Assembly (NCBI RefSeq): GCF_007743815.1
Contig: NZ_CP036265.1
Location: 1,666,323-1,730,322 of the forward strand
Source of the DNA: Alienimonas californiensis
GTDB lineage: Bacteria > Planctomycetota > Planctomycetia > Planctomycetales > Planctomycetaceae
Direction: 5' to 3'
DNA: 64,000 bases
Of this stretch, positions 3,137-54,523 are shown piece by piece (position 1 is the stretch's first letter; every line of letters starts with the position of its first letter). The notes under the pieces are model-generated. The model did not search any database, was not told the DNA's origin, and worked only from the letters and a program-made list of their open reading frames with translations. Position numbers and translations under genes: made by a program.

Positions 3137-3491
3137 GCCCGCACGGCCCGCCGGGCGAGTTTGCTGTGCCGTGCGGCGGCGCGGGTTGTAGCGACGCGGT
3201 GGGGGTGGGGTCGTGACGGCCGTGCCGGTCCGCCGGGGGGCGACCGGCGAGAACCGGCGGGGTGCGGCTGGAGGGGTGGTGGGGCGTCAAGGGGTTCGCC
3301 GGGCCGTGACGAACCTGCGTGTCAGACCTCGATTCCCTCCCCGCCGCCGGATCGTACGGAAGCGATTCGGCCGGGGGAGATCGGGCGTCCTGGACCACCT
3401 GGACCCGGTCCGCCCCTTCCCCCGCTCCGCCCGCCGGGTTTCGGCCGCGCCGTGCGAGGGTTCACACCACTTCAGCACGGAGGCTGATCCA
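3137..3491. other. Intergenic region, probable leader of the barrel-protein gene
   Basis: These 355 bp hold no gene I can support. The frame of the downstream gene is open back to a GTG at 3213, but that stretch is basic and lacks a signal peptide, so I treat it as untranslated leader. GGAGG at 3479-3483 is a good ribosome binding site for the GTG at 3492. Confidence 0.55.
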
Positions 3492-37989: not shown

Positions 37990-39597
37990 CTAGTCGTGCG
38001 CCTCCAGCCCGGCGGCGATTTCCGCCCGGGTCATCGGCGGGGCCGGCTTCGCCGCGGCCTGCGCCGGCGTCTCGCCCGGCTTGAGGGGTTTCGGGTAGTC
38101 CGCCAGCGTCGCCCGCAACCGCTCCACGACCTGCGGCCGTTCCTCGGCGAGGTTCCGCGTTTCGAGCGGATCGTCCCGGTAGTCGTACAGCTCCAGCAGC
38201 GCCGGGGCCTCCGGGACGCGATGGTCGATCCACTCCACCAGGCGGTAGCGGTCGGTGCGGATCGCGCGGCCCAGCCGTTGCTTGGGGAACACGTGATAGG
38301 CGTGATCGCGAACCCGGGCCGCGGGGTCCTTTAACACCGGGACGAGGCTCACCCCGTCGATCGGCTGCGGCCCCCGGGGGGTCGGCAGGCCGCAGAGTTC
38401 CGTCAGCGTCGGGAACACGTCGACGCTCTCCGCCAGTTGGCCGGTCGCCGCGCCGGCCGACACGCCGGGGCCGGCGAACAGCAGCGGGATGCGGGCGGCC
38501 TGCTCGAAGTTGGTGTGCTTCGTCCAGATGCCGTGGTCGCCGAGGTGGAACCCGTGGTCGCCCCACAGCACAACCACGGTGTTCTCCGCGAGTCCCAACT
38601 CGTCCAGCGCCGCGATCAGCTTGCCGACCTGGGCGTCGGCGTAGCTCACGCCGGCGTAGTACCCGTGCACCAGCGTCTTCGCGAGTTCCGAGCCGGGCTC
38701 CGGATCGCCTCCGTCGGGGATCGGTTTGTAGGCGTTGATCTCCCCGCCTCGCTTTATCGCGACCCCCGGGGCGCCGTCCGGGGCCTCCACGAATTCCGCG
38801 GCGGGCAGTTCGTCCGGGTCGTACAGGTCCCAGTACCGCTGCGGCACGCTGAAGGGCATGTGCGGCCGGGCCAGCCCGCAGGCAATGAAGAACGGGGTGC
38901 CCTCCGCCTCCCGCCGCGCCTTCGCGTCCCGGAGGCGCCGCACCGTTTCGGCCGTCACGCGGCCGTCGGCGTAGGCGTCGTCCGGCACGTCGGGCGATTC
39001 GTACGCGGCCCCCCGCGGCAGCTGGCCGATCCGGTCGAGCATCACGTTGCCGAACAGCGCCTCCTCGCGGGTGATCGGCCCGCCGACGTTCTCCGGGGCG
39101 ACGTACTCGATCACCTTGTCCTTGAAGTGCGGGACCATGAAGGACTCCGGGTCGCCCTGGTTCCCGTGCCCGATGTGGAACACCTTCCCCAGCGACTCGG
39201 TCCGATAGCCGGCCGCGGCGAAGCGCTGGGGCAGGGTGACGGCGTCCGGCAGCGCCTGCCGCAGGTGGCTGCCGAGTCCGTAGAGGCCGGTGGACGTGCT
39301 GTGCGAGCCGAGCATCAGCGTGAACCGACTGGGGGCGCACACCGCCTGGTTGCAGTACGCCGCGTCGAACCGCACGCCGCGGGCGGCGAGGGCGTCCATA
39401 TGCGGCGTCTGAGCTACCGCGTCACCGTAGCAGCCCAGTGCCGGCTTCAGGTCGTCCACCAGAATCATCAACACGTTCGGCCGCCCGGCCGCGGAGGGCC
39501 TGTCCGGTTCCTCCGCGGCGACCCCCGCGGGCTGTACCGCAAGGGCCGCGACGGCGAGCGCCGCGGCGAGGCGGACGGAGACGGGCGGCGGAATCAT
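37990..39597 (-). CDS. Sulfatase, iduronate-2-sulfatase-like
   Basis: A 535-residue exported sulfatase. Signal peptide (VRLAAALAVAALAVQPAGVA); metal-binding VLMILVDDLKPALGCYGD (residues 42-59), a hallmark of the iduronate-2-sulfatase-like group; signature CAPSR with Cys87 as the formylglycine site in NQAVCAPSRFTLMLGSHSTS; GKVFHIGHGNQGDP; PFFIACGLARPHMPF; and VVLWGDHGFHLGDHGIWTKHT. The C-terminus has LYDYRDDPLETRNLAEE followed by an Ala/Pro/Lys-rich tail (PAQAAAKPAPPMT). It would remove sulfate from a uronate- or hexose-containing polysaccharide. It diverges from the DUF1080 gene at 39887, with a strong hairpin between them. Confidence 0.92.
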   Translation of the reverse strand: MIPPPVSVRLAAALAVAALAVQPAGVAAEEPDRPSAAGRPNVLMILVDDLKPALGCYGDAVAQTPHMDALAARGVRFDAAYCNQAVCAPSRFTLMLGSHSTSTGLYGLGSHLRQALPDAVTLPQRFAAAGYRTESLGKVFHIGHGNQGDPESFMVPHFKDKVIEYVAPENVGGPITREEALFGNVMLDRIGQLPRGAAYESPDVPDDAYADGRVTAETVRRLRDAKARREAEGTPFFIACGLARPHMPFSVPQRYWDLYDPDELPAAEFVEAPDGAPGVAIKRGGEINAYKPIPDGGDPEPGSELAKTLVHGYYAGVSYADAQVGKLIAALDELGLAENTVVVLWGDHGFHLGDHGIWTKHTNFEQAARIPLLFAGPGVSAGAATGQLAESVDVFPTLTELCGLPTPRGPQPIDGVSLVPVLKDPAARVRDHAYHVFPKQRLGRAIRTDRYRLVEWIDHRVPEAPALLELYDYRDDPLETRNLAEERPQVVERLRATLADYPKPLKPGETPAQAAAKPAPPMTRAEIAAGLEAHD

Positions 39598-39706
39598 GCG
39601 AGCGAGCGGGTTGAACCGGGGAACGGCCCAGTCTATCGGGGCGGCCGACAGGAATTGCCCCTGAGACGGCGAGTCTCGATTGAAACCGCCGATCCCGTCC
39701 GCCGAG

Positions 39707-39749
39707 GGCGTCGTTCGCCGGCGCCCCCGTGCGGCCGGCGAACGACGCC
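39707..39749. repeat. Perfect 16-bp inverted repeat between divergent genes
   Basis: GGCGTCGTTCGCCGGC (39707-39722) and GCCGGCGAACGACGCC (39734-39749) are exact inverted repeats around 11 bases. It lies 110 bp upstream of the sulfatase start and 138 bp upstream of the DUF1080 start. It may be a shared operator or a dispersed element; no T-tract follows. Confidence 0.75.
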
Positions 39750-39886
39750 GGTGAAACGATGGGCGCCTCGCAGCCCGCCGCGTCCGCTTCGGCGGCTTCG
39801 GGTTCCCGGTAGCATGTCGGCGACGATCTCTCGCCGCCCGGCCGCCGATCGACCGCTCCCCGCTCCCCCGACACGACCGCCGCCCG

Positions 39887-40606
39887 ATGCCGTTCCGCAC
39901 CGCCCTCGCCCTGACCGCCGCCGCCTCGTTCTGTTGCTCCGCGTTCGCGGACGACGGGCCGGCCGGTTCGAGGAGCCTGTTCGACGGGAAGACCCTCGAC
40001 GGCTGGCACGCCGACGTGCCGGCCGCGGACGGCAAGCCGGAGACGAAGCCCTCCTTCGTCGTCCGCGACGGGATGCTCGTCAGCCTCGGCTCGCCGAACG
40101 GGCACCTCATCACCGACAAGACGCACGAGAACTACCGGCTGGAGGTCGAATACCGCTTCCCCGGCAAGCCCGGCAACTGCGGGGTGCTGGTGCACGCCTC
40201 CACGCCGCGGGCCCTCTATCAGATGTTCCCGCAGTCGATCGAGGTGCAGATGAACCACCAGCACGCCGGCGACTTCTGGTGCATTGAGGAGGACATCGCC
40301 GTGCCGGATATGGTCGAGCGCCGCGGCCCCAAGGAGAACTGGGGGATCAACGGGAGCAAGGCCCGCCGGATCCTCAACCTGACCGACGGCTCCGAGAAGC
40401 CGCTGGGCGAGTGGAACCGCATGACGATCGAGTGCGTCGGCGACGAGGTGAAGGTCTGGGTCAACGGCGACCTGGTGAACCACGGCCACGACTGCACCGC
40501 CGCCAGCGGTCAGATCGCCGTGCAGGCGGAAGGCTCCGAGGTGGAGTTCAAGAAGCTCCGGCTGACGCCGATCGAGACCCTCAGCGAAACGGCCCCGGCC
40601 GAGTGA
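39887..40606 (+). CDS. 3-keto-disaccharide hydrolase domain protein (DUF1080)
   Basis: A 239-residue exported protein: signal peptide (FRTALALTAAASFCCSAFA), then the DUF1080/3-keto-disaccharide hydrolase domain. SLFDGKTLDGWHAD (about residues 30-43), LITDKTHENYRLEVEYRF (about 75-92), GNCGVLVHAS, QSIEVQMNHQHAGDFW and the C-terminal EWNRMTIECVGDEVKVWVNG with IAVQAEGSEVEFKKLRL are all typical of this concanavalin-like jelly roll. Some members cleave 3-keto-glycosides produced by periplasmic glycoside 3-oxidases. It is followed 139 bp later by a PQQ-like propeller gene on the same strand, which fits an oxidation-then-cleavage scheme. Confidence 0.88.
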   Translation: MPFRTALALTAAASFCCSAFADDGPAGSRSLFDGKTLDGWHADVPAADGKPETKPSFVVRDGMLVSLGSPNGHLITDKTHENYRLEVEYRFPGKPGNCGVLVHASTPRALYQMFPQSIEVQMNHQHAGDFWCIEEDIAVPDMVERRGPKENWGINGSKARRILNLTDGSEKPLGEWNRMTIECVGDEVKVWVNGDLVNHGHDCTAASGQIAVQAEGSEVEFKKLRLTPIETLSETAPAE

Positions 40607-40745
40607 CCCCCGGGCGAGCCTGTCGCGTCCCGGACGGAGTTTCGTCACGGCCCGCACCCCGTGGCGCCCGCTCGCCGCGTTGTTTGCGGGGGCGGCCGTT
40701 AGACTGTTCGGGTTCCGATCCGCCCCCCGATCCGCGCTCGATTCC

Positions 40746-42083
40746 ATGCGAAACGCCCTCGCCTCCGCCGGCACGTTCCTGTGGCTCGTCGTCCCGGCCC
40801 TCGCCGCGGACGGGGAGCGCTGGCCGCAGTGGCGGGGGCCGGACGGCAGCGGGCGGACCGCCGCCACGGACGTCGTCACGGAGTGGGGCCCCGAGCAAAA
40901 CGTGCTCTGGCGCGCCAGCCTGCCGGAGGCGGGGAACTCCACGCCGGTCGTCTGGGGCGACCGCGTGTTCCTCACGCAGCCGTTGTCGGAGAACGATCAG
41001 CGGGCGCTGCTCTGCCTCGACCGCACCACCGGCGCCGAACTCTGGCGGCGGGCGGTGACCTACGACAAACCGGAGGCCACCCACAAAACGAACCCCTACG
41101 CCTCCGCCTCGCCCGCCGTCGACGGCGAACGGGTCGTCGCCTGGTTCGGGTCCGCCGGCCTGGTCTGCTGGGACCTGGAGGGCAAAGAGCTGTGGCGTCG
41201 CGACCTCGGCGAGCAACGGCACATGTGGGGCTACGGCTCCTCGCCGATCCTCCACGGGAACAACTGCATCCTGAACTTCGGCCCGGGCGAACGGGAGTTT
41301 CTCATCGCCGTCGACAAGAGCACCGGCGAGACCGTCTGGCAGGTCGACGCCCTGGACGACGAGGCCGAACGCGCCCACAGCGGCCCGGAAAACGACGGCA
41401 ACTCCAAGGACTTCGATAAGGATGGCGACCGGGCGAACCGTCTCCGCGGCGCCTGGAGCACGCCGATCGTGATCACCGTCGACGGCCGTGACGAACTGAT
41501 CGTGACGCTGCCCCGCCGCGTCAGCGCCTTCGATCCGGCGACCGGCGAACAGTTGTGGACCTGCGGCGGGCTCGGCCCGCTGGCGTACGCCTCGCCGATG
41601 GCCTCCGAGGACGGCATCGTCGTGGCCCTGGGCGGCTACGGCGGGGCCTGCCTGGCCGTGCGGGCCGGCGGCGAGGGCGACGTCACGGAGACCCGGCGGC
41701 TCTGGCACCAGCCCCGCGGGGTCGGCTACCTGGGGACCGGCGCCGTGGCCGACGGCGCCGTGTACGTCTGCGACATGGGCGGCGTCCTGCGCTGCCTCGA
41801 CGTGCAGACCGGCAAGGAACTGTGGAAGTCTCGCGTCGCCGGCGGGGGCACCTGGTCCAGCGTGACCCAGACCGCCGACGGCCGCATGTTCCTGCTGACA
41901 AAGTCCGGCACCACCGCCGTGTTTCGGGCGAACCGGGAGGAGTACGAACCGATCGCCGCGAACGACCTGGACGAGTCCACAAACGCCTCCGTCGTGGCGG
42001 CGGGCGACGCCCTGTTCCTCCGCACCGACGACGCCCTCTGGGCCGTCGGCGCCCCGGCCGAGGGCGCCGCGGACGGCGAGTAG
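40746..42083 (+). CDS. PQQ-like beta-propeller repeat protein, exported
   Basis: A 445-residue protein: signal peptide (ALASAGTFLWLVVPALAAD) and an eight-bladed PQQ-like propeller. The blade marks are ERWPQWRGPDGSGRTAA at the start, then CLDRTTGAELWRR, VDKSTGETVWQV, FDPATGEQLWTC and CLDVQTGKELWKS. It belongs to the outer-membrane-assembly/PQQ-like family common in Planctomycetota; no cofactor or catalytic residues can be assigned. ATG 40746 opens the signal peptide. It resembles the protein at 6417-7859 in its N-terminal WP(A/Q)...GP.G.G signature, so the two are paralogues. It ends just before a 16-bp inverted repeat. Confidence 0.85.
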   Translation: MRNALASAGTFLWLVVPALAADGERWPQWRGPDGSGRTAATDVVTEWGPEQNVLWRASLPEAGNSTPVVWGDRVFLTQPLSENDQRALLCLDRTTGAELWRRAVTYDKPEATHKTNPYASASPAVDGERVVAWFGSAGLVCWDLEGKELWRRDLGEQRHMWGYGSSPILHGNNCILNFGPGEREFLIAVDKSTGETVWQVDALDDEAERAHSGPENDGNSKDFDKDGDRANRLRGAWSTPIVITVDGRDELIVTLPRRVSAFDPATGEQLWTCGGLGPLAYASPMASEDGIVVALGGYGGACLAVRAGGEGDVTETRRLWHQPRGVGYLGTGAVADGAVYVCDMGGVLRCLDVQTGKELWKSRVAGGGTWSSVTQTADGRMFLLTKSGTTAVFRANREEYEPIAANDLDESTNASVVAAGDALFLRTDDALWAVGAPAEGAADGE

Positions 42084-42325: not shown

Positions 42326-44065
42326 ATGCCCGCTCAATCCCGCTGCGTTCTGTTTCTGGCGGGGGCGCTCCTCGCCCTGACGGCGGGGGCCGTGCCCGCC
42401 GGGGCTCAGGTTCCCTCTGAAGGGGAATCTGCACGGGAACCCGCGAGCGTGCCGGCGGAGAAGAGCGGGTATCTGCTCGTCCCCAACGGGCCGGTGTCGC
42501 AGGAATTCGACGCCGGGTTCTCCCTGTACGCGGCGGCGTGGCCGCTGCTGGAGACCTACCCCGGCCAGCAGTTTCAGTCCGGGTTGTTCGGGACGTGGAT
42601 GCACCCGCTCCACGATCCGCAGCCGGAGGAGCGGCTCTACAACACCATCGAGGGCGGCTTGGGCTGGTGGCGGGACACCCGCTTCGCCACCGCGACGCCG
42701 AAGTTCATCATGGGCGGGGTCGCGTTGAACTTCTCCGCCTGGGCCAACGGCCCCGGCGCCGGCAAGGGGCGGGACTGGGCGAAGCCCAACGGGAAGGAGG
42801 CCGTGGTGCAGCTCAGCCCCCGCGTCCTCTGGCCGCCGGACGGGTTGAACCTGAAGCAGGGCACCTGCGGGGAGCTGTTCGGCTACGGCTACCTTCCGCT
42901 GCCGTTGATCGACCCCCAACCGACCACCGACGGCGCCCCGGTCCCCACCGGCGGGCAGTGCTGGACGCTGTTCCTGAACGCCGGCAACTTCAAGGGTCCG
43001 GTCGCCTTCTTCGCCCCCTCCTTCTGGTCCCGGCCGACGATCGAACGGCCGGAACTGGCGGGGCTGTTCCTCGACGCCAAGCCGTCGAAGGCGAACCGGG
43101 CGTTGCAGATGGAAACGCAGTTCATCCCCGCCGTCGTCGCCACCGCCGAGGACGGCACCCGCTACGCCCGGGTCGCCCGCACGCTGTTCCCGGCGAACCG
43201 CGACGGGGCCTCGGTGACGGTGCACAAGATCTCCTCCTACCGCCGGGCGGCGCTGTGGGACGCGGTGGAGGCTTGGTTCGCCGGCGGTCCCCCGGCCGAC
43301 GGCCGGATCGACGCCGGGCAGGCGGTCGTGCATCCCTTCCCGGGCCGCGGCGGGGCGACCTGGCGGATCTTCGAACGCGGGACGCCGCGGGAGGACCGCA
43401 TCCGCCTGGACTGGGACGCGATCGCCACCCCCACCGCCTTCGCCGAGGACGCCTACGGCTTCCGCTGGAACGAAGACCTGACGACCTCCGCGACCGTCGA
43501 CGGCAATCCGGCCGTCGCGCTGCCGGAGTACTACCGCCTCGGCGAGGACGCCCGCGGGAACCCGCTGTGGCAGCCGATCAAACGGGGGGACGTGCCGGCC
43601 TCGGTGCGCTTCGACGAGTCCGCCCTGACGACCCCCGGCGCCGACCGGCACGACGCCTACGTCACTCCGCTGGTCGCGGAGAACCCGGACGGCCGCGACG
43701 CCACCGGCGCCGGGACCGACGCGGCGACGGTCTGGACGACCCCCGGCCCGGCCGTCGGCCCCTTCACGGCCCGCCCCGGCGACGGCAGCGAGGTCACGTA
43801 TCACTGGTATCGCTTCGCCGACCAGCCGGCCGTCTTGCAGGCCGGTCTGTCCGACGCGGAGCGGGAGGTTCTGCAGAAACGCGTCGAACTGCTGCACCGG
43901 CATTGGACGCCGGACCGCGACTACCTCCCCCCGCCGACCGACGGCGCCCTGTCCGCCGGCGCCCTGGCGGAGATCGACCCGGCGCTGCTCGTGACGCCGC
44001 CGGCGGGCTTGGAGATCGGCTACGTCCCCATCGTCACCCGCCAGGCCGCCGGCCCGGACCGCTAG
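42326..44065 (+). CDS. Secreted hypothetical protein, large
   Basis: A 579-residue protein with a signal peptide (CVLFLAGALLALTAGAVPAGA). The mature part is Trp/Tyr/Pro-rich, which suggests a carbohydrate-binding or all-beta fold: GYLLVPNGPVSQEFDAGF, NTIEGGLGWWRDTRFATAT, VVQLSPRVLWPPDG, FFAPSFWSRPTIERPEL and a C-terminal YHWYRFADQPAVLQAGLSDA. I do not recognise a family or catalytic motif. It lies between the DUF1080/PQQ pair and the first giant surface protein, on the same strand but separated by 242 and 305 bp, so it is probably its own transcription unit. Function unknown. Confidence 0.8.
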   Translation: MPAQSRCVLFLAGALLALTAGAVPAGAQVPSEGESAREPASVPAEKSGYLLVPNGPVSQEFDAGFSLYAAAWPLLETYPGQQFQSGLFGTWMHPLHDPQPEERLYNTIEGGLGWWRDTRFATATPKFIMGGVALNFSAWANGPGAGKGRDWAKPNGKEAVVQLSPRVLWPPDGLNLKQGTCGELFGYGYLPLPLIDPQPTTDGAPVPTGGQCWTLFLNAGNFKGPVAFFAPSFWSRPTIERPELAGLFLDAKPSKANRALQMETQFIPAVVATAEDGTRYARVARTLFPANRDGASVTVHKISSYRRAALWDAVEAWFAGGPPADGRIDAGQAVVHPFPGRGGATWRIFERGTPREDRIRLDWDAIATPTAFAEDAYGFRWNEDLTTSATVDGNPAVALPEYYRLGEDARGNPLWQPIKRGDVPASVRFDESALTTPGADRHDAYVTPLVAENPDGRDATGAGTDAATVWTTPGPAVGPFTARPGDGSEVTYHWYRFADQPAVLQAGLSDAEREVLQKRVELLHRHWTPDRDYLPPPTDGALSAGALAEIDPALLVTPPAGLEIGYVPIVTRQAAGPDR

Positions 44066-44370
44066 GGCGCTCGGCCGGGTGCCGCCGCGGTGAGCGAGAC
44101 CTGCGGTCGAACCGCGCGAACGGAGGCGACCTTCGCGTTTCCGCGACGCAGTTCCTTCGCGGGCGATCGACGCCGAAAGGGTCTCGGGCCGGACCGTCCA
44201 CTCCCCTAGCATCTCAGGGCGGAAACATGAGGCGGACTTCGCCGCCGCGGTGAAAACGGGGGGTTTCCCTGATGCCTCGACAGAAGATCTGACGATCTTG
44301 TTAAGAAGCGGTCGACGGAGCGTCCCGTCAGTCTGCGCCTCTTCAGAACTTTCACCGAAAGGCGTCACGG
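44066..44370. other. Intergenic region upstream of the first giant surface protein
   Basis: No gene in 305 bp. A small inverted repeat AAGATC-TGAC-GATCTT (44284-44299) is a candidate operator, and AAAGG about eight bases before the ATG at 44371 a weak ribosome binding site. No clear promoter boxes. Confidence 0.45.
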
Positions 44371-47300
44371 ATGACGTCGCCCCCGCCCCCGCCCACGGCG
44401 CCTGCCGCAGACTCCGCCCGCCCGCGGCCGTCCCGGGCCGCGGCGGAGCGTCGCCGCTCCCGTCGCCGCCGGTTTGCGGCCGCCTTCGCCACGGTCGCGC
44501 TGGGCCTGTTCGCCGCCGCCGACCGGGCGGCGGCGCAGGACTTTCAGGACGTCGGCCGGTTCCGCATCGTGTTCTGGAACCAGGTCGACGGCGATCACAA
44601 CTTCGGCGCGGAATCGATCGTCCAGGCGGACCTCGGCACCTTCTCGGCGGAGGAGCGGGCGGCGGTGGTGCAGTCGTTCCAGTATTGGAACGGCATCCTC
44701 AACACGACGACCGACGCCGGCGCGGGGGGGACGGTCGGGGCGGTCGGCGAGCAGGTCGTCATCCGTGTGCTGAAGGACGACTCGCAGACCGGCTACAACG
44801 CGAACGCCGCCTCCAGCTTGCACGACGTCGGCGGGGGCGTGATCAGCACGGACACCGCGGCCCGCTTGGTCAATGGCCAATCCACCACCCGGACCGACGG
44901 GCAGGACGGGCGGATCGTGTTCGAGTTCGGCGCCTCGCCGCTCAACTTCGACCGCCCCGCCCAGCTGGTGCCGCCGGGGAACTCCGTGGTGCGGACGTCG
45001 ATCCACGAGATCGGCCACCTGCTGGGCTTCACGGGCGACCACGACCCGTTCTCCACCAACACCGTCGGTGGCAACTTCAACGGGACGGAGGTGGACGCGA
45101 TCACCGGCGCCGCCGGCGTGCCGGTCGACGGGGACGGCGCCCACACGCTGCTGGACTACCACAACCTGACCCGGGCCGAACCCACCGGCGTCAGCTACCG
45201 CAACCTGGCGGCGTTCGGGCCGGCGGAACTGGCCGTGCTGGCGGACCTGGGCTACGACGCCGGGGCGAACGCCACGCTGAACCTCGACCAGCAGTTCGGC
45301 GGGGCCCGCTACTTCGCCGACGTCGCCGGGGCCGTCGGCTTCAACGACAACGTCGCCGGCGGGACGGGGACGACCGGAACCTGGACCTCCGCGGCGGACT
45401 ACTCCGTCGGCTATTTCCTCCAAACGGACGGCAGCGTCGTCAGGCTGGTCGGCAGCACGAATCAGAGCGGCTTCGCCACCGCTGGCGTGCGAATCGCCGG
45501 CCCCGGGAACCAGACGACCGGCGACCGGGTGACGCTGGACGTCGGTTCGGCGATCAACGCCTCCGGCGACAGCGCCGTCGGCGTCCTGGTCAGCAGCGGG
45601 GCGAACAACTGGATCACCCACCGCGGGGCGATCAACCTCACCGGCGCCGACACGATCGGGTTGCAGTTCGACTTCGGCGGGCCGTTCGGCACGACCGTCG
45701 TCGACTCCGGCCGCTATGGCGACCACCTCGTGGACCGGGTGGATCTGACGGGCACGGTCTCCGCCGACCGGTCGATCTTCATCGCCGACACCGCCGCCGT
45801 CCGGGAGATCAACGTCCTCACCGGCGCCAGTCTGACCGGCGACATCGTCAGCGACGCCTTTGTCGGCGCCCTGGGCCGCCCGACCCTCACGTTCGGCCGG
45901 GCGTTCGACGCCGGGACCGGGCAGGCCAACGGCGTGACCGGGACCGCCGGCGCCGGCGGGGACGCGGCGTTCGTCTTCACCTTCGCCGACGACGTCACCT
46001 CGTCCGACCCCGGCGTCAACGGCGGCCGAGCGGTGTTGGACGCCCAGGTGTACGGCGGCGCCACGACGTTGTCCGGGATCGCGCTGTTCGGCGGCGAGTA
46101 CGAACAGTACGGCGGCACGCTGACCGCCTCCGGCACGCTGCTGAATTACAACGGCACCACGCTGCACGGCGGGGAACTGCTGGTTTCGGGGAACGGCTTT
46201 CTGGAGGGGACGGAAGTCCGGAACGGGGCCACGCTGACGGTCTCCGGCACGGCCCGGACGGGCGACGACGTCACCTCCACGGACGCCTTCTACGACCTTG
46301 AGGTGCAGGCCGGGGGGACCGCCGCCGTCACGGCCACCGGGACCCTGGTGACCGACGACTTCGATACCGCCGGCACGGCCACGGTCGCCGACGGCGGGAC
46401 GTTCAACGCCGCTACCGCCGACGTCACCGGCGCCGGCGACTGGACCGTGAACGGAACCGCCGCGGTGACTGGTGCCGCGACCGTGGACGCCGGCGAGCTC
46501 ACGGTCGGCGCAACCGGCGCCTTCGACGCCGCCTCCCTCGCCCTGTCCGGCAGCGGCGACGCGACCACCAGCGGCGACGTGGACGTCGTCGGCGCCACGA
46601 CGGTCGACGGCGCCGGTTCGACCCTCAACGTCGCCGCCGGCGCCTTCGACGCCGACTCGCTGGCCCTGACGGACAACGCCGCCGCGAGCGTCACCGGGAC
46701 CGCGACGCTGACCGGTGCCGCCACGGTCACCGATTCCACCGCGACCGTGAACGCCGGCGGGACGCTGGCGGCGGGGTCGGCGACGCTCAACTCCGGCCTG
46801 CTGGACGTGTTGGCCGGCGGCACGGCCGACGTGACCGGCGACGCCTTGCTCGACGGCGGGTTCGCCCGCGTCAACGGCGACCTGCTCGCCGCCAACGTGC
46901 TGCTGAACCAGGGCGGCGCCATCGGCGGCGCCGGGACCGTCACCGGCGACTTCTTCGCCGCCGGCCGCATCGCCCCGGGCAACAGCCCCGGCGTGCTGAC
47001 CGTTGTCGGGAACTTCACCGGCGCCTCCGTCGCCGTGTACGACATCGAACTGCAGGCCGCCGCCGCCCCGGTCGCGGGCGTCGACTACGACCGCCTCGCC
47101 GTCAACGGGGCCGCGAGCGTCGACGGCGGCACGGTCAACGTGCTGCCGTTCGGCAACTCGAACTACGTGTTCGGGTCGCGGTACGACTTCCTCACCGCCG
47201 CCGGCGGGCTGACGGTGCAGAACCGCGTGGACGTCGTCGATCCGCTGGCCGACGTGCGGTTCGCCCAACTGATCGGGCCGAACTCCTACGCCCTGGTGAC

Positions 47301-48447
47301 CGCCCGCGACGTGCCGTTCGCCACGTTCGGCGACACCTTCAACACCCGTCAGGTGGGGGCGGCGCTCGATCGGGTGCGGAACGATCCGGCCCTGGCGGAG
47401 TTGCGGGACGCCCTCGACACCCTGCCGGCCGACGCCGACGTGCGGGACGCGATCAACCAGCTCTCCGGCGAGATCTACGGCACGCAGTTGACCGCCATGA
47501 ATCGCAGCAACCTGCAGTTCCTGGACGTGGTGGGCAGCCGCGGCGGAGCCTTCCCGCTGGTCTGCGGGACCTGCGGCGCCGGCCCCGGACGGGGCGGCTT
47601 GCAGGGCTGGCAGGAGACCTTCGGGGCCGGCGGGCAGGTGGAGGGCGACGGCAACGCCTTCGAGGCCCAACTCGGCACGGCGGGCACCGCGGTCGGCCTG
47701 TCCCGGATCTACGGCGGGGAGAGCGGCTGCTTGGCGGTGGACGTGTTCTACGGCTACGAATCGACCACCGTCCGCGTGCCGGACGCCCGCTCCACCCTCA
47801 CCGACGAGTCGCACCGCGTCGGCGGCTCGCTGCGGGCCAGCGCCGGCCGGGTCTACGGCCGGCTGACCGGGTTCAGCGGCGGGTTCGACGGCGAATCCCG
47901 CCGGGCCTTCGTCGTCGACAACCCGCTGTTCCCGCTGTCCAATCAGACCCGCGGGGAGTACGACGGCTCGTTGTCCGCCGGCGACGCGGAGGTCGGCGCC
48001 CTGACCGGCTCCGAGGTCGCCTATCTCATGCCGATCGCCGGCGTGCGGGTCGTGCGGACGCATCGGGGCGGGTTCGCCGAGGACGGCGGGATCAGCGCCC
48101 TGGCGGTGGACGACGCCGCCCTCACGGAGCTCCGGGCGCGGGTCGGCCTGCGGGCCGGGCGCCGGCTGGCGCTGGGTTGGAACCTGCCGGCGACGGGGAC
48201 GTTCGAGGCGTTCTACAGCCGGGACCTGTCCGCCAGTTCCGTGGGCGACTTCCGGGCGAACCTCGTCGCCGCCGAAGCCGCCCGGTTCACCGCCCGCGGC
48301 ACGGACTTCGACGCCGACCGCCTCGTGCTGGGCCCGGGGCTGACGCTGGGCGACGGGCCGGTGCAGCTCACCGGCCGGTACCGGGCCGGGCTGAGCGAGA
48401 CCGCCGTGCTGCACGCCGGCGACGTCGGGCTGGAAGTCTGCTTCTGA
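44371..48447 (+). CDS. Autotransporter-type surface protein with metzincin-like metalloprotease passenger
   Basis: A 1358-residue exported protein. An extended Arg-rich signal (RRRSRRRRFAAAFATVALGL, about residues 28-55) leads into a 300-residue domain with RTSIHEIGHLLGFTGDHDPF at 209-228: zinc-ligand His212 and His216, catalytic Glu213, Gly219 and a late Asp223/His224, a metzincin-like variant. A protease fold is supported by ERAAVVQSFQYWNGIL and GGVISTDTAARLV. Next come beta-helical autotransporter repeats (about 480-900), e.g. TASGTLLNYNGTTLHGGELL and GNSPGVLTVVGNFTG, then the hinge INQLSGEIYGTQLT (about 1028) and a C-terminal barrel ending in CF. It should be a surface-exposed or released protease. 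A strong terminator follows. Confidence 0.85.
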   Translation: MTSPPPPPTAPAADSARPRPSRAAAERRRSRRRRFAAAFATVALGLFAAADRAAAQDFQDVGRFRIVFWNQVDGDHNFGAESIVQADLGTFSAEERAAVVQSFQYWNGILNTTTDAGAGGTVGAVGEQVVIRVLKDDSQTGYNANAASSLHDVGGGVISTDTAARLVNGQSTTRTDGQDGRIVFEFGASPLNFDRPAQLVPPGNSVVRTSIHEIGHLLGFTGDHDPFSTNTVGGNFNGTEVDAITGAAGVPVDGDGAHTLLDYHNLTRAEPTGVSYRNLAAFGPAELAVLADLGYDAGANATLNLDQQFGGARYFADVAGAVGFNDNVAGGTGTTGTWTSAADYSVGYFLQTDGSVVRLVGSTNQSGFATAGVRIAGPGNQTTGDRVTLDVGSAINASGDSAVGVLVSSGANNWITHRGAINLTGADTIGLQFDFGGPFGTTVVDSGRYGDHLVDRVDLTGTVSADRSIFIADTAAVREINVLTGASLTGDIVSDAFVGALGRPTLTFGRAFDAGTGQANGVTGTAGAGGDAAFVFTFADDVTSSDPGVNGGRAVLDAQVYGGATTLSGIALFGGEYEQYGGTLTASGTLLNYNGTTLHGGELLVSGNGFLEGTEVRNGATLTVSGTARTGDDVTSTDAFYDLEVQAGGTAAVTATGTLVTDDFDTAGTATVADGGTFNAATADVTGAGDWTVNGTAAVTGAATVDAGELTVGATGAFDAASLALSGSGDATTSGDVDVVGATTVDGAGSTLNVAAGAFDADSLALTDNAAASVTGTATLTGAATVTDSTATVNAGGTLAAGSATLNSGLLDVLAGGTADVTGDALLDGGFARVNGDLLAANVLLNQGGAIGGAGTVTGDFFAAGRIAPGNSPGVLTVVGNFTGASVAVYDIELQAAAAPVAGVDYDRLAVNGAASVDGGTVNVLPFGNSNYVFGSRYDFLTAAGGLTVQNRVDVVDPLADVRFAQLIGPNSYALVTARDVPFATFGDTFNTRQVGAALDRVRNDPALAELRDALDTLPADADVRDAINQLSGEIYGTQLTAMNRSNLQFLDVVGSRGGAFPLVCGTCGAGPGRGGLQGWQETFGAGGQVEGDGNAFEAQLGTAGTAVGLSRIYGGESGCLAVDVFYGYESTTVRVPDARSTLTDESHRVGGSLRASAGRVYGRLTGFSGGFDGESRRAFVVDNPLFPLSNQTRGEYDGSLSAGDAEVGALTGSEVAYLMPIAGVRVVRTHRGGFAEDGGISALAVDDAALTELRARVGLRAGRRLALGWNLPATGTFEAFYSRDLSASSVGDFRANLVAAEAARFTARGTDFDADRLVLGPGLTLGDGPVQLTGRYRAGLSETAVLHAGDVGLEVCF

Positions 48448-48487
48448 GCCGCGGCGCTCGTTGAAGGCGTTCGAAGGCGTTCGTCGG

Positions 48488-48527
48488 AACGGCGGTCCGC
48501 ACCTGGTGCGGGCCGCCGTTCTCTTTT
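48488..48527 (+). terminator. Intrinsic terminator after the metalloprotease-autotransporter gene
   Basis: AACGGCGGTCCGCACC (48488-48503) pairs with GGTGCGGGCCGCCGTT (48505-48520) with one G-T wobble, followed by CTCTTTT. It starts 41 bp after the stop codon and separates the two giant genes. Confidence 0.85.
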
Positions 48528-48733
48528 GCCGTCCGGCGTCTCCGGACTGTACGGCCCCTTTTGGCCCCGGGCGGACGCGGGCTGACTTGAGGGGAATTGG
48601 GAAAGATCGCCCGGGGGGCGGGAATCCCTCATGCGACGGGCGCGGCGGCGTCGATTGAAGAGGGAAGCCGTGGGGAGCGAAGGATCGCATCCCCGGGAAT
48701 CTCCCCGTCACCAGCCTCCTGACCGCCGCACGG

Positions 48734-51700
48734 ATGCGCCGTTCCCTCGCGTCTCGCCTCGCCCCTTCCCGCCGCGGCGGGGCGGCGTCCCGGTCGGCCT
48801 CCGGTCTGCGGGGCCGTCGCGCCTGGGAGCCGGGGCGCTGGTTCCGCCGGGCGCTGCCCTGGCTACCGGCCGCCGCGTTCGCCCTCGCCGTGCCCACCGT
48901 CGCGGTTCCGACCGTCGCCGTCGGGCAGGTGACCATCGACGCCGCGACCTACCCGTCGGGCGGCCCGTATCAGGTCGCGGCGACGGAGGACTACAACGGC
49001 TTCGGCGACTTCACCGTCGAGTCCGGGGCGTATTTGGAAGTCCTCGGCCCGTCGGGCCAGTTGATCACCGACGCCTACTTCAACCAGGGCTCCACCACGG
49101 TCTTCGCGGACGGGCAGCTCTCCACCGGGCTCGGCGAGGACTACACGAACGAACTCGGCGGCGAGACGGCCGTCGGCGGCGCGCTGGCGGTCGGGGGGGA
49201 TCTGAACCTCTCCGCCGGCAGCGTGATCGCGGAAGTCGGCGGGACGATCACCGCCGCGGCGCTCGCCCAGACCGGCGGCACGTTGCAGGCCGACGGGACC
49301 GTCACGCTGACCGGGGCCGCGGCCGTCAGCGACGGCGCCGGGGCCTCCGCGCTGAACGTGAACGCCGGCGGCGCCTTCTCCGCCGACAGCCTCACCCTTG
49401 CCGCGGCCGGGGGCAACGGCACGACGGCGGCGCTCAACGGGACCGTGACCCTGAACGCCGGCGGGACCGCCGCGGACGCCGGCGTGTTCATCGTCGCCAA
49501 CGCGGCGACGGCGGGCGTCGGCGGCGCCTCGACCGTCACCGGCGAAACGTCCGTCACCGGCGCCGGGTCGGCGCTCACGGTGCAGGAGGACGGCGTCTTC
49601 ACCACCGACGCCCTGACCGTCGTGGGCGGCTCCGTCACCGTCGACGCCGTCGGCGGCGGCGGCGCGGACGGAATGCTGATCGTCAACGACTCCACCGTCC
49701 TCGGCGACGGGACCAACGGCGGGACGTTGACGGTCCACGGCGACGCCGCCACCGGCGACACCACGGTGAACAGCGACGCCACGCTGACCGTCGGCGCCAC
49801 GGGCGACCTCACCACCGGCTCGCTCGCCACCGCCGGGACCACGACCCTCGACGCCGGCGGCCAGCTGATCGCCGCCGGGACGACCGTCTCCGGCGGGACG
49901 ATGACCCTCGACGGCACGGCCACGCTCGGCGCCACGACCGTCTCCGGCGGCGCCCTGACCGTCGGCGGAACCGCCGACACCGACGACGGCCTCGGCGCGA
50001 TGCAGACGCTGAACGTCTCCGGCGGAACCGTCACCGTGGAGAACACGGGCCTCCTGAGCGCCGGGGACGTGGACGTCGCCGGCACGCTGAACGTCAACGG
50101 CGACGTCGGCGGCCGCGGCGTGTTGAACGCCGCCAGCCTCGACGTCGCCTCCGGCGGGCTGACGTACGTCTACGGCGGCGACGCGACCGTGACCGGCGAC
50201 GTGACGGTCGTCGGCGGGGGTTCGGGGGCGGAACTGCGGCTCAGTTCCGGCGGCGCCGTCGCCGGCACGCTGGCCGCCGGCGGGCTGATCGTCGACGGCT
50301 CCGCCGGCGCCGCGGAGGCGAACCTCTTCGACACCGCCTCCGCCGACGTGACCGGCGCCGCGGTCGTCACCGGGGCGAACGCCGACCTGAACGTCTTCAG
50401 CATGGGGGACGGCTCGCCCGGGGCCGCCGGGCTGAGGGTCGGCACGCTGGAAGTCTCCGCCGGGGCGACGGCGACGGTGGGCGGCGGGGCGGGTCCCGCG
50501 GACGGCTCCCTGATCGTGGACGGCGCCGCGACCGTCGCCGGGGCCGGCTCGACGCTGACGCTCGCCACCCCCGGCAGCTCGCTGGAGGTGAACGCCGGCG
50601 GAACTGCCGCGGACGCCGGCGCCCTCGCCGTGTCCGCCGGCGGCGCCGTGACGGTGGGCGGCACCGCGACCGTCACCGGCGAGGCCGTCGTGACCGGCGC
50701 GGGCTCCTCGCTCGTCGTGCAGCAGGACGCCGCCCTCGCCGCCGACGCCCTGACGATCCACGGCGGCGCCGTCACCGTGGACGCCGTTTCCACCGGCACG
50801 GCCGACGGCACCCTGACCGTCGCCGACGCCACCACGATCGGCGACGCCGCCGCCGCCGGCGGTTCGCTGACGGTCCACGGCGACGCCTCCACCGGCGACA
50901 CGACCGTTCACAGCGACGGCACGCTGACGGTCCACGCCGGCGGCGCCCTGACCGCCGGCACGCTGGACTCCGCCGGCGCCACGACCTTCGCCGCGAGCTC
51001 CGCCGTCGACGCCGACGCCCTCAACGTGCTTGGCGGATCCACGCTGGGCGCCGCCGGCGCCCTGACGCTCACGGGGGGCGCGGTCGTCGCCGACAGCTCC
51101 GTCCTGAACCTCTCCGACGGGACCTTCGACGCCGCCAGCCTCGCCCTGACCGGCGCCGGCTCGGCGACGATCGAGGCCCTCGCCACGCTCACCGGCGGGG
51201 CGACCGTCGACGGGCTCGGCTCCCTGCTGACCGTCGACGCCGCCGGCACGCTGAACGGCACGACCCTCGCCCTGACGAACAGCGGCGAAGCGACCGGCGC
51301 CGGCGACGTGAATCTCTCCGGCGCCGTCACCGTCGACGGGGTCGGCAGCCAACTGAACCTGACCGGCGGCACGTTCGGCGCCGCCGGCCTCGCCCTCACC
51401 AACGAGGGGCAGGCGAGCGTCACCGGGGGCGCGGCGACCCTCTCCGGCGCCACGACCGTCGACGGCGACGGGGCTCAACTCACCGTCGGCGCCGCCGGCG
51501 TCCTGAACGGCACGTCGCTGGCCCTCACCAACTCCGGCGACTTCTCCAGCACGGGGGACGTGACCCTTTCCGGCGCCGCCACGACCAGCGGGTTCGGCAG
51601 CAATCTGCTGATCAACGGCGGGACGTTCGACGCCGCGTCGCTGGGCGCCTCCGGCGGCGGGTACTTCGGCGCCGGCGGGGACGTGAACGTGACGGGCGCC

Positions 51701-54523
51701 GCGACCGTGGACGGTTCCGGCAGCGAGATCGACGTGCATTCCGGGACGTTCGACGCCGCCTCCCTCGCCGCCACCAACGGCGGGATCCTGTACGTGTCCC
51801 GCCACGGGACCGGCGGCACGGCCACCCTCGCCGGCGCCCTGACCGTGGACGGGGCGGGCTCCCTCGCGGAGGTCGGCGTCGGCGGCGTGCTGAACGGCGC
51901 GACCCTCGCCCTGACGAACGACGGCGACGCGACCAGCGTCGGCGACGTGAACCTCTCCGGCGCCGTCACTGTCGACGGGGTCGGCTCCACGCTGACCGTC
52001 GCCGCCGGGACCTTCGACAGCGCCACCCTCGCCCTGACCGGCGCCGGCTCCGTCACGGTCGCCTCCGGCGCGACCCTGACCGCGACGACCTCCACCACCG
52101 TCGGCGACGGGACGGACGGCGGCACGCTGACGATCGACGGCACCGGCGACCTGGGGGCCACGACCCTCCTCGCCGACGGCACGCTGATCGTGAACGGCGC
52201 CGCCTCCGCGACCACCGTCGACCACGCCGGGGACCTGACGGTCGCCGCCGCCGGCTCGCTGACCGCCTCCGACGCCTTCGCCCAGACCGGCGGCACGACG
52301 ACCGTCGCCGCCGGCGGGACGCTCGACGGGACCGCCCTCGACCTGACCGGGGGGACCTTCGATGTGGCCGGCGAGGCGACCTTCACCGGCGCCGCGACCG
52401 TCGACGGGGTCGGCTCGACCCTGACCGTGCAGCCCGCCGGCGTGCTGAACGCCGGTTCGCTGAACGTCACCGGCGGGGCGACCGCCACGACCGCCGGCGA
52501 CGTGAACGTGACGAACGCCCTCTCCGTCGACGGGGCCGGCTCCGCCCTGACCGTCTCCGGCGGGACCTTCGACGCGGCCAGCCTGTCCGCGACGAACGGG
52601 GGAACCGTGAACGTCGACGCCCTGATGACCGTCGTCGGCTCCACGGACCTCGACGGCGGCACGCTGGACGTCCGCACCAGCGGCGCCGTGTTCAACACCG
52701 ACACGCTGTCCACCGTCAATAACTCGGTCCTCAATATCGCCGACGGCGCCACCGTCAACGCGACCGTCTTCACCCTCGACGAATCCTCCACCCAGACGGT
52801 CGCCAGCGGCGGGGCGCTGAACGTCGGCGAACTGCAGTTCTCCCACGGCTCGATCTTCAGCGTCGGCGCCGACAACGTCGTCAGCAGCCCCGGCACGTTG
52901 ACGATCGTCGACGGCTCCACCGCCCATGTGAACGGCCGGTTGCGGGGCGATACCTTCGTCGTCCAGCAGGGCGGCCGGCTGACCGGCTCCGGCGTCTTCG
53001 AGGCGACCGGCTCCGGCGGCGGCTTCCTGATCGCCGGCACGGTCGCCCCCGGCAACAGCCCCGGCGTGCTGGGGGTGATCGGCGCCGTCAACGTCGCCCC
53101 CACCGCCGTGCTGGAGATCGAACTGGTCGCCACCGCCCCGGGCGTCGCCCCGGTCGCCGGCGTGGACTTCGACCAGTTCGCCGTCACCGGCCCGGTCGTG
53201 CTGAACGGCAACACCGTGGAGGTCGCCCAGTTCGGCACGGGAACCTTCGCCGTCGGCACGCGGTACGACGTCGTCACCGCGACCGGCGGGCTGACCGTCG
53301 CCGGCCCGGTGACGGTCGTCGACGACGTCGCCGGCGTGCGGTTCGCCCAACTGATCCGGCCGACCAGCTACGGCCTCGTCGCCGCCCGGGACGTCTCCTA
53401 CGCCGGGACCTTCGGCACGTCCGTCAACCGCCTCGCCGTCGGCGGCGGGCTGGACGCGGCCCGATCCGCCCCCGCCCTGAGCGACCTGCGGGACGCCCTC
53501 GACACCCTGCCCGTCGCCGCCGCCTCGAAGGCCGGCCTGAACTCGCTTTCCCCCGAGATCTACGGCACGCACCTGACCTCGCTGAACCGCAGCTCGCTAC
53601 AGTTCTTCGACACGCTCGCCGCCCGGGACGCCGTGTTCCCGCTGGGCTGCGGGGTCTGCGGGGCGACCGACACGGGGCTGACCGGCTGGTGGGACGTCGC
53701 CGGCGGCGCCGGCCGGATCGACGGGGACGACAACGGCGGCGACGCCGACTTCGGCCGCGTCGGGACGACGGTCGGGCTGTCGCAGGTCGTCCGCGGGGGC
53801 AACGCCGCCGCGGCGTTCGGCGGGTTCTACGGCTACGAGTCGCTCGAATCGCGGGTCGATTCGGTCGGCGCCCGGGCGGAGTCGGACGTGCACCGCTTCG
53901 GCGTGGACGCCAGCGGAACCTTCGGCCGCATGTACGGCCGCGTGAGCGGCTTCGGCGGCTTCTCGGAGACGGACGTCCGCCGCGACGTGGTGATCGCGAA
54001 CCCGCTGTTTCCCTACCTCGACCGCAACGCCGCGACCGTCGACGGCGCCCTCGCCGGCGCCGACTCGGAGGCCGGCGTGCTGATCGGCGGCCCCCGCGCC
54101 TACGTCATGCCGGCGGCCGGCCTGCGGTACGTGTACGCCTCGCTGGACGACGCCCGCGAGAGCGGCGGCGCCACGGCGCTGATCGTGGACGACAGCGCGC
54201 TGGACGAACTGCGGGCCCGCCTCGGCGCCCGCTTCGGCTCCCAGTTCGGCAGCGACCAGCTTTGCGTCGCCGGCACGCTGGACGCCTTCTACAGCCGGGA
54301 CATCGCCGCCGGCTCGACCGGCGACGCGACCGCCGCCTTCGCCGCGGCGCCCGACGCCCCCTTCACCGCCCGCGGCACGGACTTCGGCAGCGACCGCCTG
54401 ACCTTCGGCCCGGGCGTCACGTTCGGCATCGACGCGCTGACGATCGGCACGTTCTACCGCCTCGACCACAACCGCGAAGCCACCTTCCACACCGGCGACA
54501 TTCGCCTGGAATACAGCTTCTAA
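48734..54523 (+). CDS. Giant autotransporter-type surface protein with beta-helical repeats
   Basis: A 1929-residue exported protein. An Arg-rich signal (ending about residue 64) is followed by about 1,450 residues of Gly/Thr/Asp/Ala repeats that fit a right-handed beta-helix, with units of about 40 residues such as DGVGSTLTVAAGTFDSATLA and LTNSGEATGAGDVNLSGAVT. Then GNSPGVLGVIGAVNVAPTAV marks the passenger end, SLSPEIYGTHLTSLNRSSLQ (about 1,602) the hinge, and about 300 residues of barrel to the C-terminal YSF. It is a tandem paralogue of the protein at 44371, sharing hinge and barrel but lacking the protease domain. It probably mediates adhesion or cell-surface display; no ligand can be named. 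Confidence 0.88.
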   Translation: MRRSLASRLAPSRRGGAASRSASGLRGRRAWEPGRWFRRALPWLPAAAFALAVPTVAVPTVAVGQVTIDAATYPSGGPYQVAATEDYNGFGDFTVESGAYLEVLGPSGQLITDAYFNQGSTTVFADGQLSTGLGEDYTNELGGETAVGGALAVGGDLNLSAGSVIAEVGGTITAAALAQTGGTLQADGTVTLTGAAAVSDGAGASALNVNAGGAFSADSLTLAAAGGNGTTAALNGTVTLNAGGTAADAGVFIVANAATAGVGGASTVTGETSVTGAGSALTVQEDGVFTTDALTVVGGSVTVDAVGGGGADGMLIVNDSTVLGDGTNGGTLTVHGDAATGDTTVNSDATLTVGATGDLTTGSLATAGTTTLDAGGQLIAAGTTVSGGTMTLDGTATLGATTVSGGALTVGGTADTDDGLGAMQTLNVSGGTVTVENTGLLSAGDVDVAGTLNVNGDVGGRGVLNAASLDVASGGLTYVYGGDATVTGDVTVVGGGSGAELRLSSGGAVAGTLAAGGLIVDGSAGAAEANLFDTASADVTGAAVVTGANADLNVFSMGDGSPGAAGLRVGTLEVSAGATATVGGGAGPADGSLIVDGAATVAGAGSTLTLATPGSSLEVNAGGTAADAGALAVSAGGAVTVGGTATVTGEAVVTGAGSSLVVQQDAALAADALTIHGGAVTVDAVSTGTADGTLTVADATTIGDAAAAGGSLTVHGDASTGDTTVHSDGTLTVHAGGALTAGTLDSAGATTFAASSAVDADALNVLGGSTLGAAGALTLTGGAVVADSSVLNLSDGTFDAASLALTGAGSATIEALATLTGGATVDGLGSLLTVDAAGTLNGTTLALTNSGEATGAGDVNLSGAVTVDGVGSQLNLTGGTFGAAGLALTNEGQASVTGGAATLSGATTVDGDGAQLTVGAAGVLNGTSLALTNSGDFSSTGDVTLSGAATTSGFGSNLLINGGTFDAASLGASGGGYFGAGGDVNVTGAATVDGSGSEIDVHSGTFDAASLAATNGGILYVSRHGTGGTATLAGALTVDGAGSLAEVGVGGVLNGATLALTNDGDATSVGDVNLSGAVTVDGVGSTLTVAAGTFDSATLALTGAGSVTVASGATLTATTSTTVGDGTDGGTLTIDGTGDLGATTLLADGTLIVNGAASATTVDHAGDLTVAAAGSLTASDAFAQTGGTTTVAAGGTLDGTALDLTGGTFDVAGEATFTGAATVDGVGSTLTVQPAGVLNAGSLNVTGGATATTAGDVNVTNALSVDGAGSALTVSGGTFDAASLSATNGGTVNVDALMTVVGSTDLDGGTLDVRTSGAVFNTDTLSTVNNSVLNIADGATVNATVFTLDESSTQTVASGGALNVGELQFSHGSIFSVGADNVVSSPGTLTIVDGSTAHVNGRLRGDTFVVQQGGRLTGSGVFEATGSGGGFLIAGTVAPGNSPGVLGVIGAVNVAPTAVLEIELVATAPGVAPVAGVDFDQFAVTGPVVLNGNTVEVAQFGTGTFAVGTRYDVVTATGGLTVAGPVTVVDDVAGVRFAQLIRPTSYGLVAARDVSYAGTFGTSVNRLAVGGGLDAARSAPALSDLRDALDTLPVAAASKAGLNSLSPEIYGTHLTSLNRSSLQFFDTLAARDAVFPLGCGVCGATDTGLTGWWDVAGGAGRIDGDDNGGDADFGRVGTTVGLSQVVRGGNAAAAFGGFYGYESLESRVDSVGARAESDVHRFGVDASGTFGRMYGRVSGFGGFSETDVRRDVVIANPLFPYLDRNAATVDGALAGADSEAGVLIGGPRAYVMPAAGLRYVYASLDDARESGGATALIVDDSALDELRARLGARFGSQFGSDQLCVAGTLDAFYSRDIAAGSTGDATAAFAAAPDAPFTARGTDFGSDRLTFGPGVTFGIDALTIGTFYRLDHNREATFHTGDIRLEYSF
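51118..52620 (+). repeat. Tandem ~40-codon repeats in the giant surface protein
   Basis: The passenger repeats a unit of about 120 bp: ...LALTNSG(x)GDV(N)LSGA(V)TVDGVGS(x)LTV...GTFDAAS. GACGTGAACCTCTCCGGCGC and GACGGGGTCGGCTC recur verbatim several times in this stretch. The DNA-level identity is strong enough to allow recombination and length variation between strains. Boundaries are approximate. Confidence 0.75.

Follow-up and report, generated by a model that had tools for sequence, protein, structure and literature searches.

A predicted metzincin-like metalloprotease domain at the N-terminus of a type Va autotransporter in the planctomycete Alienimonas californiensis

A gene on the forward strand of the window (the whole stretch of 64,000 nucleotides of Alienimonas californiensis DNA that was analysed) encodes a protein that is best explained as a type Va autotransporter, whose passenger starts with a metzincin-type zinc endopeptidase domain. 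A probability of approximately 0.75 is assigned to this reading, in which export, zinc binding, catalysis and substrate are all predicted properties. The C-terminal part of the protein is a classical type Va autotransporter, and the N-terminal domain, spanning residues ~57–300, is a predicted metzincin-like metalloprotease. The fusion of the two recurs in a small conserved family that appears to be uncharacterised. The features discussed below are as follows.

44371–48447, forward strand: whole gene, 1358 amino acids (signal peptide, metzincin-like protease, beta-helical passenger, helical linker, autotransporter barrel)
44371–44538, forward strand: probable Sec signal peptide, residues 1 to ~56; the n-region is long and rich in Arg, and inspection of the sequence by eye puts the cleavage near AAAQ|D
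44539–45270, forward strand: predicted protease domain, residues ~57–300 (alignment of seven homologues, sub-threshold NF038122 match, hhalign to 24 planctomycete proteases)
45004–45018, forward strand: HEIGH, residues 212–216, two candidate zinc-ligand histidines and the putative catalytic Glu213, invariant in all seven
45142–45144, forward strand: His258 (in VPVDGDGAHT), proposed third zinc ligand from its invariance and its alignment to a distal histidine
45166–45168, forward strand: Leu266 (in N-L-T-R), taken as the Met-turn position from the seven-row alignment, a presumptive assignment
45271–47352, forward strand: beta-helical passenger stalk, residues ~301–994 (structural model, Ag43 and TibA matches)
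47353–47535, forward strand: helical linker before the barrel, residues 995–1055 (secondary structure of the model, where pLDDT is low)
47566–48444, forward strand: autotransporter beta-barrel, residues ~1066–1358, with an aromatic end (..EVCF; PF03797 and NalP fold match)
48734–54523, forward strand: downstream autotransporter paralogue without a protease domain, 1929 amino acids, 45% identity over the C-terminal part, PF03797 at G000:C1:1720009-1720767

The preliminary description read, at 44371–48447, an N-terminal metzincin-like protease, beta-helical repeats, the motif LSGEIYG and a barrel. Both the coordinates and this order of parts were recovered, and the layout gains further support from a conserved family that carries the same fusion. 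It is not a product of chance, because the whole arrangement is also seen in a second full-length copy in the A. californiensis genome (917974–922065, 56% identity) and in five homologues from other genomes. An opposite-strand open reading frame (44365–48936, 1523 amino acids) was rejected as a composition artefact, as the homologues, the conserved domains and the paralogue all lie in the forward frame. By eye, hydrophobic signals ending in 'AQ' are seen at the equivalent place in homologues L002, L014, L015, L048 and L050. Three other genes of the window (37990–40119, 40680–42083 and 42326–44065) were compared by tblastn with the regions flanking the paralogues and homologues; none had a match there, and therefore no operon partner is proposed.

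Assignment of the export half rests on profile and fold matches. The Pfam profile PF03797 matches residues 1080–1326 with E=1.1e-21 and a score of 78.2 bits, where the cut-off is 26. A model of residues 300–1358 (m3b366ff79d4b), built from five sequences, reached a moderate overall pLDDT of 59; local values were best at residues 669–864 (mostly 85–92), mostly 50–80 in the barrel and low in the linker. The C-terminal 293 residues of this model match solved autotransporter barrels, which together with the profile match bears out the barrel proposed earlier. The best fold match of the modelled barrel was NalP (Z 21.9, rmsd 2.6 over 249 residues), and the folds of BrkA, EspP and EstA were also matched. 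Similarly, modelled residues 343–652 match the beta-helices of Ag43 and TibA (Z 18.3–18.9), in agreement with the beta-helical repeats of the preliminary description. The LSGEIYG motif, which had been described as a hinge, is present at residues 1031–1037 (47461–47481), inside the helical linker. The NCBIfam EprS model aligned with residues 808–1269, covering stalk and barrel only, and scored far below its cut-off. Outer-membrane barrels usually end in an aromatic residue, as does this chain. BamA has been reported in all planctomycete genomes examined (PMC3422733), and insertion of the barrel is therefore plausible.

A CGTC motif stands just before the barrel (window 47563–47574, residues 1065–1068). 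Cysteine motifs recur at this place in paralogues (VCGTCG, ACGSC, SCANCG), and also in L048 and L049; according to PMC3297439, autotransporters rarely contain cysteines. VCF or VCY forms the C-terminal end of several paralogues in the A. californiensis genome, which holds approximately ten PF03797 autotransporters, unusually many for the class. A third autotransporter of the window lies at 3213–5831 on the forward strand (872 amino acids), with a PF03797 match (E=3.9e-36) that is split into two stretches.

The same fusion was found in seven proteins from six genomes, representing four genera and three families, and all seven carry PF03797. In a class-wide search of 397 genomes, the full domain was present in six: A. 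californiensis, three species that belong to a single related genus, and two more genomes, each from a different further family. One other member of the genus Alienimonas was sampled, a 97% complete draft; it lacks the fusion, yet has nine PF03797 matches. In the tree, the fusion clade forms one side of a fully supported branch (100/100) opposite 24 wider-family relatives, and this branch is long; the tree is consistent with one origin of the clade. Within the class, 31 of 198 genomes have PF03797, and the wider protease family is common: of 40 relatives, 28 match NF038122, most of them with scores under the cut-off. Each half is thus unremarkable among these planctomycetes, and it is their joining that stands out. 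Nineteen other planctomycete autotransporter loci were inspected, and none has HExxH in the autotransporter frame.

A single-sequence scan of genome contigs gave no match, and an alignment-based scan of genome contigs gave two loci, on the same contigs as those of genomes G152 and G004. No relative of the fusion domain was found in viral contigs, nor was one found in plasmids. One viral contig, L067 (IMGVR_UViG_3300022221_000279), encodes a wider-family protease at 1046–1909, the sole such viral relative found; its neighbours, judged by eye, are an apparent phage portal gene and a capsid-protease gene. In the G108 copy (L049, at ~5144 on the reverse strand), an in-frame TAG falls within the matched region, adjoining the start of the protease domain; this copy may be damaged, have a different start or contain an assembly error.

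NalP in Neisseria is a surface sheddase that processes autotransporters, and a comparable enzyme acting mainly on its neighbours could be encoded here. Both protease copies of A. californiensis lie directly upstream of protease-free barrel paralogues: 44371–48447 is followed by 48734–54523, and 917974–922065 by genes at 922796 and 927132. This pairing may, however, reflect tandem duplication only. Furthermore, in genomes G004, G152 and G108 the protease fusion is the only protein with a PF03797 match, so that there is no other such autotransporter to cut; for this reason a sheddase role is not general, and it is unlikely to be the main one. Most likely the protein instead cuts extracellular proteins at the surface of the cell, either for nutrition or for the turnover of surface and matrix proteins. 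The preliminary description had suggested that it could act in predation, remodelling or biofilm life.

The protease domain itself was recognised through distant relationships, and no library model that hit it reached its curated cut-off. Searched alone, the N-terminal domain matched NF038122 (metallo_LGF) with 28.2 bits and E=1.8e-6, against a curated cut-off of 80. The Pfam matrixin profile (M10) gave weak matches in six of the seven members (best E=1.5e-4), and the Pfam M8 profile PF01457 matched a short stretch below threshold (11.3 bits against a gathering score of 21, E=0.14). In a PDB profile search, the HExxH segment fell weakly on matrix metalloproteinases (E ~0.004), and karilysin was also matched. 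A further relationship emerged from hhalign, in which a profile of the seven members matched 24 ordinary secreted planctomycete proteases with a probability of 98.8 and E=7.6e-17. An AlphaFold model of the domain was poor (pLDDT 31, pTM 0.29) because its alignment held only three sequences, and no claim about the fold is based on it.

The metzincin-like site put forward earlier, with His212, Glu213 and His216, is upheld: the motif HEIGHLLGFTGDHD is present, and all three residues are invariant in the seven homologous domains, although the other six share only 31–54% identity with that of the window. His258 is likewise invariant, and is the only other invariant histidine of the domain. It aligns with the invariant distal histidine of the 24 secreted proteases. 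Given this invariance and this alignment, the most likely zinc site consists of HExxHxxG followed, after an insertion of 38 residues (between Gly219 and His258), by His258 as the predicted third ligand. The length of the insertion between the glycine and the distal histidine varies among the homologues in the seven-row alignment.

At the presumed Met-turn position the window protein has Leu266 in place of the methionine typical of metzincins. Among the seven domains this position is Met in three (L002, L049 and L050), Leu in two (the window protein and L048) and Ile in two (L014 and L015). Loss of the methionine in four of seven would suit a catalytically dead zinc-protease fold that has been reused as a binding tip, and autotransporter passengers without enzymes are mostly adhesins. 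Against such an adhesin stands the invariance of Glu213 and of the three ligand candidates at low overall identity, which is the pattern that selection for catalysis gives; a dead fold is accordingly judged quite improbable. As cited in PMC1266349, leucine at the Met-turn position is tolerated in MMP-2 but compromises Erwinia protease C, and leucine is native to this position in one GP63 group (PMC11957388).

Least probable is a shifted or Asp-zincin-like site with Asp223 or His224 as the third ligand, as the preliminary description had it. An aspartate and a histidine do follow closely after HEIGHLLG in the window protein, HExxHxxGxxD sites occur in Asp-zincins (PMC3890501), and L014 (TYDHAPF) and L015 (TYSHSPF) have a nearby histidine, which falls on His224 in a three-row alignment but not in the seven-row alignment. 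However, Asp223 is replaced by Tyr, Thr, Arg or Gly in five of the six homologues, and His224 has no counterpart in L002 (GDDPY), L048, L049 and L050, whereas His258 is invariant and aligned with an invariant histidine of the wider family. Both candidates were rejected on conservation across the seven domains.

For the metzincin-like autotransporter, the following sequence of events is proposed. The protein would be exported by Sec, its C-terminal 12-stranded barrel would insert into the outer membrane and the passenger would be translocated through the barrel. Once outside, the passenger would fold into its long beta-helix, a stalk with the N-terminal protease exposed at its distal end. His212, His216 and the distant His258 would bind the zinc, with Glu213 as the general base, and the insertion would lie between Gly219 and the third histidine, as in leishmanolysin. 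The odds are evenly balanced on the fuller claim of an uncharacterised class of autotransporter, a bacterial outer-membrane counterpart in layout of surface leishmanolysin, in which a beta-helix on the planctomycete surface carries at its tip a catalytically active metzincin whose zinc site is split, the third histidine lying past the 38-residue insertion.

The protein shares its layout with the serine-protease autotransporters, which comprise the subtilisin-type NalP and EprS and the SPATEs EspP and Hbp: an N-terminal protease, a passenger, a helical linker and a 12-stranded PF03797-type barrel. It differs from them in its host, a planctomycete, and in its protease, a predicted metzincin-like zinc enzyme unrelated to the subtilisin or trypsin folds. 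With the NF038122-related secreted metalloproteases of planctomycetes it shares HExxHxxG[FI], an F.G insert, the distal histidine in VP.....H and a C-terminal D[IL]G[WY] helix, but the fusion clade is separate from these proteins, and the scanned relatives L011 and L012 lack PF03797. The three planctomycete proteins observed to match NF038122 above its cut-off (L088, L089 and L090) have HE[IL][DS]E, that is HExxE and not HExxH; judging from these motifs, some enzymes of the NF038122 family may bind metal through a different kind of site.

Leishmanolysin (M8, GP63) is a surface-displayed metzincin with an insertion between the glycine of HExxHxxG and the third histidine (PMC11957388), and it is the assignment of His258 that likens the window protein to it. 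Leishmanolysin is, however, a GPI-anchored eukaryotic enzyme with many cysteines, and the 38-residue insert of the window protein is shorter. Matrixins (M10), including bacterial karilysin, have in common with the window protein the weak profile matches around HExxH; in contrast, their third histidine follows the glycine by three residues (HExxHxxGxxH), whereas the conserved histidine of the window protein lies 39 residues on and its residue 222 is a glycine that is not conserved.

A literature search found no description of a metalloprotease or metzincin autotransporter; this agrees with the earlier suggestion that the layout is uncharacterised, but the search covered open-licence papers only, so the absence is weak evidence. 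Serine proteases, but no metalloproteases, appear in a review of type V secretion (PMC3297439). Among protease autotransporters serine proteases are the known rule, and a metzincin passenger would extend the group by a zinc-dependent class. The molecular basis of planctomycete surface biology and extracellular digestion is poorly understood, and a conserved protein that combines a protease with its own secretion device would offer a single-gene handle on how enzymes are placed outside planctomycete cells.
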